Shown piece by piece: positions 2,882 through 14,833 of a stretch of 24,281 nucleotides of DNA (the stretch's first letter is position 1; each line of letters opens with the position of its first letter). A program made the position numbers and the translations under genes. Where the stretch lies: positions 1-24,281 of the IMG/VR virus record IMGVR_UViG_3300025000_000412, one strand, 5' to 3'. The notes beneath the pieces were generated by a model, which did no database searches, was not told where the DNA came from, and worked only from the letters and a program-made list of their open reading frames with translations. Source of the stretch: a virus.

Positions 2882-2910
2882 ATTATACCATACCCATTTA
2901 CTATAGTCAA
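2882..2910 (-). promoter_or_regulatory. Strong sigma-A type promoter
   Basis: On the minus strand TTGACT (2905-2910), a 17-bp spacer and TATAAT (2882-2887) match the consensus at 11 of 12 positions. It drives the operon 2855 to 2204. Confidence 0.85.
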
Positions 2911-2953: not shown

Positions 2954-2984
2954 TAAAAAAGCCAGTATTTTACCTGGCTTTTTC
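2954..2984 (-). terminator. Bidirectional intrinsic terminator after the zinc-finger gene
   Basis: AGCCAG (2960-2965) and CTGGCT (2974-2979) form the stem, with a T-run on either strand. It separates the two leftward operons. Confidence 0.8.
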
Positions 2985-3224
2985 TGTGGCGTGCCGATTC
3001 CTAAAATATTCCCGGCACCTGCTGCAGTATGTGATTTTGTCTTTCGTGTGGTGAGTGGATACGGGGTAATCCATCTCGCCACCGCATTGGGGACACAAGC
3101 CGGCAAGTGCCCTATCAAGCCTGAGTTTCCTTTGGCGCATCCGGTACCTGCATTGGGTGCAGCAGTACAGGTGTCTTTTACTTCTGGGTGCAAAGCTTTT
3201 GCCGCAGGAAGGGCAATTCCTCAC
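2970..3224 (-). CDS. Small multi-zinc-finger protein
   Basis: An 84-residue protein with three cysteine pairs: CPSC (residues 4-7), CCTQC (about 21-25) and CPQC (about 44-47), plus CSRC (about 67-70). This would form two zinc ribbons. The spacing between pairs is rich in R and K (RSKRHLYCC, RYRMRQRKLRLDR), consistent with nucleic-acid binding. The GTG start (3222-3224) overlaps the TGA of the frameshift-encoded HTH domain upstream, and an AGAGGGGTG site lies just before it, so its translation may partly depend on ribosomes that have frameshifted. A terminator overlaps its stop. Function is unknown; similar small zinc-ribbon proteins are common in phage accessory operons. Confidence 0.8.
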   Translation of the reverse strand: MRNCPSCGKSFAPRSKRHLYCCTQCRYRMRQRKLRLDRALAGLCPQCGGEMDYPVSTHHTKDKITYCSRCREYFRNRHATEKAR

Positions 3225-3397
3225 TCAGCTTCACCCCTCTGTCCGTAAACTCTTTCCATCCCTGCTAGTGTGACCAACCATGTGCCGCCTGATTTGCGTG
3301 CTTCGTGTGGGAGAAATCTACCACCGTTTAGACAGGCAACCTTCACTGTGCTTGAACCGAGCCCCCAAAGCTCTGCGGCTTCGGAGGCAGTGACTAC
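3221..3397 (-). CDS. Helix-turn-helix domain in the -1 frame, no start codon of its own
   Basis: This 58-codon open stretch encodes a clear DNA-binding domain: VVTASEAAELWGLGSSTVKV (HTH), then a wing-like segment with ARKSGGTWLVTLAGMERVYG. The pattern is that of small phage and Bacillota HTH proteins. The frame has no ATG, GTG or TTG before the domain back to an in-frame stop. It is exactly the frame reached by a -1 shift at the heptamer G GGA AAG (3397-3403), the last two codons before the stop of the upstream gene. The natural product is therefore probably the 166-residue fusion 3221..3720. A lost base in the G3A3 run is the alternative. Confidence 0.75.
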   Translation of the reverse strand, partial: VVTASEAAELWGLGSSTVKVACLNGGRFLPHEARKSGGTWLVTLAGMERVYGQRGEAE

Positions 3398-3418
3398 TTT
3401 CCCAGCGCGTATTCCTCT
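3361..3418 (-). promoter_or_regulatory. Programmed -1 frameshift signal: internal SD, slippery heptamer, hairpin
   Basis: On the minus strand, in order: AGAGGA (3413-3418), a 9-nt spacer, the heptamer G GGA AAG (3397-3403) in the X XXY YYZ phase of the zero frame, the TAG stop directly after, an 8-nt spacer, then GCCTCCGAAGC (3378-3388), a 6-nt loop and GCTTTGGGGGC (3361-3371). The stem has 11 pairs including two G-U. The heptamer is that of the lambda G/T shift; the three-part layout is that of dnaX. Confidence 0.75.
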
Positions 3419-3720
3419 TGTGCGGACTTATATTTAAGGCGCTTTTCTTCTGCTAGTTTGCGCTGCCCCTCATCCCAGGTTAAAGTATTTTCGCTAAGAG
3501 GTTCTTTTGCTGATTCGGCCAACTCGGCTAACTCAGTATTGTATTCCTTTTCCAGTACAAGCATTGCTTCAAAAGAAATCTCTTCTGTAAGACCTGCAAA
3601 TGCGCTAAAATCTTCTCTCACTGAGGCTTCGCCACAATCTAGACTACCTTTAAATCCATCCTCTAGCATTTCCTCGCTCACCTTGCGCCAATTTTTATAC
3701 TGCTCTATTAAGTTTTTCAT
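3394..3720 (-). CDS. 108-residue hypothetical protein, frame-0 product of a frameshifted regulator
   Basis: ATG at 3718-3720 with GGAGGG seven bases upstream. The product is acidic and largely helical (IEQYKNWRKVSEEML, then an acidic middle FAGLTEEISFEAMLVLEKEY, then a K/E-rich helix), with no membrane segment or metal site. I do not recognise a family for this part alone. It ends ...YALGK with the slippery heptamer G GGA AAG immediately before TAG; a -1 shift would append the 58-residue HTH domain, giving 166 residues. Unshifted product would lack DNA binding and could be a partner or competitor of the longer form. It is the first gene after a near-perfect promoter with two operators, so it may be autoregulated. 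Confidence 0.75.
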   Translation of the reverse strand: MKNLIEQYKNWRKVSEEMLEDGFKGSLDCGEASVREDFSAFAGLTEEISFEAMLVLEKEYNTELAELAESAKEPLSENTLTWDEGQRKLAEEKRLKYKSAQEEYALGK

Positions 3721-3747
3721 TCAATCGCCCTCCTGGCTGTTTTTTCT

Positions 3748-3802
3748 TGACGTTTTCGTCATCTCTTGTACTTATTATATCATGACGAATTCGTTATGTC
3801 AA
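3748..3802 (-). promoter_or_regulatory. Consensus promoter with two palindromic operators
   Basis: On the minus strand TTGACA (3797-3802), a 17-bp spacer and TATAAT (3774-3779) are a perfect sigma-A match. Two 14-bp sites of the form TGACGAANNCGTCA follow: TGACGAATTCGTTA (3783-3796, inside the spacer) and TGACGTTTTCGTCA (3748-3761, just past the start point). Centres are 35 bp apart. A dimeric repressor bound to both would block the promoter. Confidence 0.8.
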
Positions 3803-3929: not shown

Positions 3930-4388
3930 TTGGCCAAAAGATACACACCAGAATGGTCAGAAAAGATAGTAGCAACCAGGCGCAAGAATAACAGCTATGG
4001 ACATACGGAAGAGAGTAAGGACAAAATAAGACTTGCCAAGTTAGGAAAGAAGAGAGATAAACCTTCTCCGATTGCGGGTAGAAAATATTCTATATTACAT
4101 AAGGAACGCATAGCAGAAGGTCATAAGGGATTAGTGTTGTCGGAAGAGACTAGGGTAAAAATAGCCCATAGACCAAACCCAGTGAAAGGATCGGAGCATC
4201 CACACGCTGCACTAAGCGAGCAGCAAGTAAGAGAGATATTTGGTCTTTATGCTAGGGGAGAAGCAACCCAAAAGGATTTAGCTGGTAAGTATAAGGTTAG
4301 CCGTGGCGCAATCACAGGAATAGTTCACGGCTATACGTGGAACCATGTTACTGGCTTGCCTATCCGGGGTAGGAAATATAAGACCTAG
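3930..4388 (+). CDS. NUMOD3-repeat/HTH protein, homing-endonuclease-like but without a nuclease domain
   Basis: A 152-residue, very basic protein on the plus strand, against the direction of nearly all other genes. It starts at TTG with AAGGGAGG nine bases upstream. It contains NUMOD3-like modules: HTEESKDKIRLAKLGKK (residues 25-41), a degenerate copy near 49-67 and LSEETRVKIAHRPNP (70-84). The C-terminus (95-140) is an HTH (LYARGEATQKDLAGKYKVSR, then GYTWNHV) of the type at the end of phage HNH and GIY-YIG homing endonucleases. No HNH or GIY-YIG catalytic motif is present. It is likely a DNA-binding remnant of a free-standing homing endonuclease or a moron regulator. It converges on the amidase gene. 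Confidence 0.8.
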   Translation: MAKRYTPEWSEKIVATRRKNNSYGHTEESKDKIRLAKLGKKRDKPSPIAGRKYSILHKERIAEGHKGLVLSEETRVKIAHRPNPVKGSEHPHAALSEQQVREIFGLYARGEATQKDLAGKYKVSRGAITGIVHGYTWNHVTGLPIRGRKYKT

Positions 4389-14203: not shown

Positions 14204-14377
14204 CTACTTAAGCAGGAGAGGGCATATACCTTTATTCTTATTATCTTCCAATTCTTTTATCATAGAGGCATAAAGAAAAATCTTCTCACCTTCAGAAGCA
14301 TTATATATTTCGGACGGCATACGGCCTTTCTGCACGTAATAATGAATCATAGCCGCTAAGCCGTCCTCTTCAATTAG
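14204..14377 (-). CDS. Frameshift extension of the tail assembly chaperone
   Basis: An open stretch of 57 codons with no upstream start codon close to its beginning; it encodes IEEDGLAAMIHYYVQKGRMP, then EIYNASEGEKIFLYASM. This is the usual content of the C-terminal extension of tail chaperones in PBSX- and Mu-like phages (the gpGT role). It is reached by -1 shifting at A AAA AAC (14377-14383), directly before the stop of the upstream gene. The fused product 14204..14763 would be about 187 residues and would probably bind the tape measure. Confidence 0.85.
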   Translation of the reverse strand, partial: LIEEDGLAAMIHYYVQKGRMPSEIYNASEGEKIFLYASMIKELEDNKNKGICPLLLK

Positions 14378-14383
14378 TTTTTT
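14312..14383 (-). promoter_or_regulatory. Programmed -1 frameshift signal in the tail chaperone
   Basis: A AAA AAC (14377-14383) is in zero-frame phase X XXY YYZ and is followed directly by TAA. A 7-bp stem GGACGGC (14360-14366)/GCCGTCC (14312-14318) begins 10 nt downstream, with a long loop. Confidence 0.8.
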
Positions 14384-14763
14384 GTGTCTTCAATGTCCAC
14401 ATTGCCTTTATCGAATCCGGACAACTTCATGATGGCGTTATAGACCATCAATATTTCTCCGCCCAGCAGGATGATGGATACAATATCCACCGGCCTCGTG
14501 GTGCCGTACTTCTCGCGCAACTCCTTGGTCTTAAACGTCGGGTCGGTAGTCAATTCATAGATAGCCCATTTCATTTCTTCGGTATCATTTCCATTGGCAT
14601 TTTCGCTGATATTTTTCATTTCATCAAGTGTTGCAGCCCGGTAAGAAATAAAAAAAGGCTGTCCTAGTTGCTTAGACAGTCTTTTAATTTCAATCTTCCC
14701 GGTAGGAATATTTTTTACTTTCGTAACATCTGCGGCCAGCAACATATCCAAGGTCTGTCCCAT
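14374..14763 (-). CDS. Tail assembly chaperone, frame-0 product (gpG-like, XkdN-like)
   Basis: A 129-residue protein when started at ATG 14761-14763, which has GGAGG nine bases upstream; an upstream in-frame start at 14829 lacks this. The sequence includes GKIEIKRLSKQLGQPFFISY and RAATLDEMKNISENANGN, then WAIYELTTDPTFKTKELREK. This and the location between tail tube and tape measure match the tail assembly chaperone (XkdN-like) of contractile phages. The stop is immediately after A AAA AAC, and part of the ribosomes should shift to produce the longer form. The chaperone keeps tape measure and tube protein apart before assembly. Confidence 0.9.
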   Translation of the reverse strand: MGQTLDMLLAADVTKVKNIPTGKIEIKRLSKQLGQPFFISYRAATLDEMKNISENANGNDTEEMKWAIYELTTDPTFKTKELREKYGTTRPVDIVSIILLGGEILMVYNAIMKLSGFDKGNVDIEDTKN

Positions 14764-14833
14764 CTTAACAATCCTCCATTGATTAATTATCCAGTAAATG
14801 AAAAATATCGTCATAGATGTGTCGGTCATTTTT

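Follow-up and report, generated by a model that had tools for sequence, protein, structure and literature searches.

Frameshifting has long been familiar from the genes of structural proteins and transposases. Phage lambda uses the heptamer G_GGA_AAG for its G/GT proteins, and in this and other tail-chaperone systems the ribosome slips by -1 shortly before the upstream gene ends, which serves a ratio of products in structural assembly. The Ig-like domains of phages, likewise, are promiscuous C-terminal domains that are frameshifted onto different phage proteins, in their case structural ones (reviewed in PMC5009743). IS3-family elements also produce a short OrfA and a fused OrfAB by a -1 slip, with one part binding DNA; there, it is the upstream ORF that encodes the DNA-binding part, and catalysis is what the shift adds (PMC5009743). 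From a different direction, Acr-Aca operons and bifunctional Acr-Aca proteins combine a strong consensus promoter, diverse payload genes and an HTH protein, and the Aca-repressed promoters are described as having a palindrome within their core and, in some cases, a second palindrome (PMC9410906). Finally, HTH_59 (PF20038) proteins such as gp66 of Parageobacillus phage NIIg3.2 place a C-terminal HTH_59 behind a variable N-terminal domain in one ORF, without heptamer or frameshift (PMC10530707).

Here, we analysed a 24,281-nt stretch of viral DNA, called the window throughout, in which a -1 frameshift is predicted to add a DNA-binding HTH to a small non-structural protein of a self-promoted operon. 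The locus resembles the Ig-like case in its promiscuous C-terminal domain and the IS3 case in its short and fused products, but what the shift adds is an HTH rather than a structural or catalytic part, and the operon is unlike the assembly genes of the tail chaperones. With the Acr-Aca operons it shares the strong promoter, the palindrome inside the core, a second palindrome beside it, the HTH protein and the diversity of payloads; it differs in the predicted frameshift. Its HTH matches HTH_59 and phrog_2655. Our search of the literature on frameshifting together with HTH proteins or regulators, from which most subscription papers fell outside, returned IS elements and unrelated papers only. 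Frameshifted C-terminal domains and payload-operon HTH autorepressors are thus each known, and we found no description that combines both.

Results

Organization of the predicted frameshift locus

All parts of the operon, i.e. payload ORF, heptamer, HTH and second gene, lie on the minus strand. The payload ORF (3394..3720), preceded by the sequence-predicted ribosome-binding site AGGAGG (3729..3734), encodes a zero-frame product of 108 aa that ends in L-G-K-stop (CTG GGA AAG TAG). The slippery heptamer G_GGA_AAG (3397..3403) stands directly before the zero-frame TAG (3396..3394) in the right phase for a -1 slip. Past the slip, the -1 frame (3221..3397, ending with a TGA at 3223..3221) encodes 58 residues, which would give a fusion of 166 aa with the trans-frame peptide ..EEYALGKVVTASEAAELWGL.. 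These residues match the Pfam profile PF20038 (HTH_59) with 76.3 bits (E 1.8e-21), the curated cut-off being 27 bits. Before GGG, the HTH frame is open over just 8 codons, in which ATG, GTG and TTG are all absent and a single ATA is the sole near-cognate codon. An 11-bp hairpin (3361..3388), a putative stimulator, starts 8 nt after the heptamer, and an SD-like AGAGGA (3413..3418), possibly a local stimulator, lies 9 nt before it. The stop directly after the heptamer, the startless HTH domain and the hairpin had all been named in an initial annotation of this DNA, with which our analysis agrees. In E. coli, G_GGA_AAG belongs to the three most shift-prone heptamers when accompanied by stimulators (PMC4066793; PMC5009743).

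The second gene of the operon (2970..3224) encodes an 84-aa Cys-rich, zinc-ribbon-like protein, whose matches stay under the family cut-offs, and a terminator-like stem-loop (2955..2984, minus strand) closes the operon. The GTG start of the second gene (3224) overlaps the HTH stop, from which it had been proposed that its translation may depend on shifting as well. This proposal lost weight, since such an overlap is not a general trait and the gene has an SD-like AGAGGGG of its own. Just past the terminator, we observed a second near-consensus promoter (TTGACT-17-TATAAT, 11/12; 2882-2910, minus strand). On the other side, the operon is adjoined by a divergent ORF of 152 aa (3930-4388, plus strand) with a weak MarR/HTH_28 match only, whose N-terminal half we take to be reminiscent of homing-endonuclease repeats.

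The same block behind unrelated payloads

Is this arrangement confined to the window? We found it in six contigs of uncultivated phages, few and related, namely the window and the loci L002, L003, L004, L005 and L018. All six read L-G-K-stop in the zero frame and HTH_59 in the -1 frame, and the heptamer is invariant among them, while an all-against-all BLASTP sorted their upstream ORFs into five unrelated families. In pairwise comparisons, DNA homology extends from a point 1-11 nt upstream of the heptamer to the vicinity of the HTH stop, so that the heptamer marks the border of the common block; the exception is the pair L003/L005, which has its payload in common. At the DNA level, the block can be recognized by the signature GGGAAAGTAGT followed by HTH_59.

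Two further contigs are second copies, L023 of L018 and L025 of L005. The latter (DQHR01000100.1), a short contig with a match to the L005 phage, comes from a MAG that bears the label Bacteroidales, where it is probably mis-binned; a single scan of genome contigs returned only this L005-type contig and one false match. Several candidates were rejected: the payload likeness of L016 was spurious (it is limited to a short stretch, the context differs and no HTH follows), the heptamer match of L019 was due to chance and had no HTH, and L026 (Sulfitobacter), L052 and L058 carried no HTH_59.

Operon promoter and HTH_59 domain

Upstream of the payload ORF, the window carries a promoter of full consensus (TTGACA-17-TATAAT, 12/12, with a TG before the -10; 3774..3802, minus strand). 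Two palindromes, both proposed operators, accompany it: TGACG-AATT-CGTTA (3783..3796) inside the promoter spacer, the layout trait of Aca-repressed promoters, and TGACG-N4-CGTCA (3748..3761) just after the -10. The common pattern TRACGN4CGTYA has two matches in the 24-kb window, both at the operon promoter, where shuffling gives an expectation of 0.09. The five other loci and L050 have the same promoter before the operon (11-12/12 consensus); in the five, promoter and a similar RBS leader, GCC(A/G)GGAGGGCGA, stand before an additional leader gene. Their spacers hold CCCG-type palindromes (CATCCCGAATAAGGGATG, or CATCCCGTATTCGGGATG in L018), and after the -10, L002-L004 have CCCGAAAACGGG and L005 a shifted form of it, with no clear second palindrome at this place in L018. 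The window differs from the other loci both in the half-site (TGACG vs CCCG) and in the recognition-helix region of the HTH (STVKVACLN vs STVKRACQQ), which is a correlated change with n = 1.

Promoter and palindromes suggest autorepression by the fusion rather than the ratio-sensing switch that had been considered earlier. Given the frameshift, autorepression is the best-supported role of the fusion and, as far as the sequence can tell, a rather probable one. Alternatively, a genuinely frameshifted fusion could serve as an excisionase or directionality factor, or regulate other phage or host promoters. The best PHROG match of the window HTH, phrog_2655, is indeed labelled excisionase, ORF59 of Geobacillus phage E2 is annotated as such, and the excisionase RdfS is among the Foldseek matches of the predicted HTH model (pLDDT 86), which shows a weak likeness to MerR-like and excisionase DNA-binding domains (best E 0.15). 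We nevertheless regard this role as unlikely, given that no integrase was seen beside the operon in the window, itself a fragment, and that the operon promoter is the only place in the window with palindromes of this form, the AT-centred palindromes of the relatives likewise lying at the operon promoter.

HTH_59 domains also occur outside such operons. The L003 contig carries another HTH_59-like domain in a single ORF (G003; 27204-27329, minus strand). In L007, an HTH_59 gene has its own start and a promoter (10/12) about 358 nt upstream of the HTH, whose spacer holds the palindrome ATAACC-N6-GGTTAT; this palindrome suggests that operators within the spacer may be a general feature of HTH_59 proteins.

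Evidence of selection on heptamer, frames and hairpin

The central claim of the initial annotation, a -1 frameshift that gates a DNA-binding domain, held up in the comparison of relatives, in which heptamer and hairpin are kept wherever the two frames are. In a small sample of related sequences, the codons GGG AAA GTA show 0/45 synonymous pairwise differences, compared to 205/459 in codons 16-54. The HTH evolves with a dN/dS of 0.04-0.22 among the loci, several pairs lying beyond a dS of 1, and the payload common to L003 and L005 (family C) with a dN/dS of 0.13. Folding energies of the hairpin range from -17.5 to -22.0 kcal/mol in the six loci, and the hairpin exceeds codon-preserving shuffles in five of them (p <= 0.007; window p = 0.006; L018 p = 0.083), whereas 13 HTH_59 homologues without the heptamer reach -2.5 to -14.9 kcal/mol with shuffle p >= 0.13. 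A chance origin is countered by the shuffle result of the window together with the recurrence of the arrangement behind unrelated ORFs in five other loci. Three synonymous third positions of the hairpin vary jointly, being C/A/T in the window and L003-L005 and G/G/C in L002 and L018; of the eight possible sets, the native one is the stablest in the window, L003 and L018 and the second stablest in L002. Since the pairing register is shifted by one between the two groups, it is the strength of the hairpin that is conserved here, and not a strict column-by-column covariation. The SD-like element behaves differently: it is found 6-17 nt upstream in the window and L002, is weak in L018 and is absent in L003-L005. 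Hence, of the three stimulatory elements first proposed, heptamer and hairpin persist in the relatives, while the third, AGAGGA, is not conserved.

Could the HTH instead be a gene in its own right, whose translation begins by re-initiation or at a start codon that is weak or non-standard, with LGK-stop as a mere by-product of its GKVVTA codons? L018 has an ATG three codons before the heptamer with a plausible Shine-Dalgarno sequence (GGAGG, 10 nt upstream of that ATG), TTG codons lie 5-9 codons upstream in L002, L003 and L005, and E2 ORF59 and gp59 of Geobacillus phage A403 use their own starts. Against this stands an open HTH frame without ATG, GTG or TTG not only in the window but also in L004. 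Moreover, separate translation leaves unexplained the synonymous constraint on GGG AAA GTA, the jointly varying hairpin 8 nt downstream and the slipping phase in five unrelated ORFs, each of which would be in phase by chance in about one third of cases. We therefore consider separate translation improbable as a general account, although L018, with its own plausible ATG and a hairpin that is not significant, may be an exception. A recent single-base indel that split a one-ORF regulator, as a pseudogene or an assembly error, for which the existence of one-ORF payload-HTH_59 fusions (L050, NIIg3.2 gp66) could be cited, is contradicted by the comparison and hardly credible: six loci from several metagenomes keep the two frames in the same relation at dS values up to >1, both frames are under purifying selection, and the upstream ORFs differ. 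Furthermore, the fusion of the window itself was not found as a single ORF, which does not favour an indel either. Taken at the sequence level, a -1 frameshift at this site has very likely been selected.

Payloads and single-ORF fusions

For residues 1-60 of the window payload, matches were found to free-standing proteins of 64-74 aa encoded by Fusobacterium phages and by plasmids of F. varium and Paraclostridium, and in Eubacterium callanderi the payload domain occurs in fusion with another kind of HTH (HTH_3). Fusions to HTH_59 itself exist in one ORF: L050 joins the payload domain of L018 (48% identity over 67 aa) to HTH_59, and NIIg3.2 gp66 carries an N-domain followed by HTH_59 in a neighbourhood similar to that of the present loci. 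Payload families B, C, D and E had no match in the phage collection, and PADLOC returned nothing for the payloads. A model of the window payload, built from a single sequence, is helical with a pLDDT of 67.6, too weak for a fold search.

In L002-L005 and L018, the payload is preceded by a leader gene, whose N-terminus (MKINRKEIMKRAHEIAKKMVGDWYARLALALRQAWMEAK) is conserved while its C-terminus varies. Leader genes were located in L002 (2246-2662), L003 (2299-2694), L018 (5568-6080), L021 (2914-3252) and L022 (4664-4296, minus strand). They occur also in thermophilic Bacillus-group phages and match Phage_Gp111 weakly; the gene beside NIIg3.2 gp66 has the same kind of N-terminal leader domain.

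Discussion

We propose the following circuit. A short phage operon would be driven by its own strong promoter, with an exchangeable payload that ends at a -1 site as its first gene. Most ribosomes would stop at the TAG and release the 108-aa payload alone, while some would slip at G_GGA_AAG, aided by the hairpin, and add HTH_59 to give the 166-aa form. This form would most likely bind as a dimer to the palindromes that lie within the -35/-10 spacer and next to it, and would thereby repress the operon, so that the output of repressor would track the number of ribosomes that finish the payload. We consider it likely that this account as a whole, i.e. an exchangeable payload with an autorepressor made by frameshifting on it, is correct. 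Heptamer, hairpin and HTH would then form one portable block, with the heptamer as the point at which unrelated payload genes have been attached to it. Whether this block is a module that captures arbitrary payloads, each of which would come to encode its own autorepressor by frameshifting and tie the repressor level to its own translation, we judge to be an even call.

Frameshifting appears to act here as a general connector, by which unrelated accessory genes of phages acquire a DNA-binding form. If confirmed, the locus would offer a testable feedback circuit that is set by the rate of recoding. It would also explain HTH fragments that are missed by gene callers, as they have no start codon, and the signature of heptamer, stop, hairpin and HTH_59 would help to find accessory, possibly anti-defence, genes.

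The operon may not be the only site of recoding in this phage. The gene before the tape measure (14374-14829, minus strand) ends in A_AAA_AAC-TAA (14383..14374; heptamer 14383..14377) and has an open -1 continuation, ..KKLIEEDGLAAMIHYYVQKGRM.., which makes it a likely case of a G/GT-type tail-chaperone frameshift.
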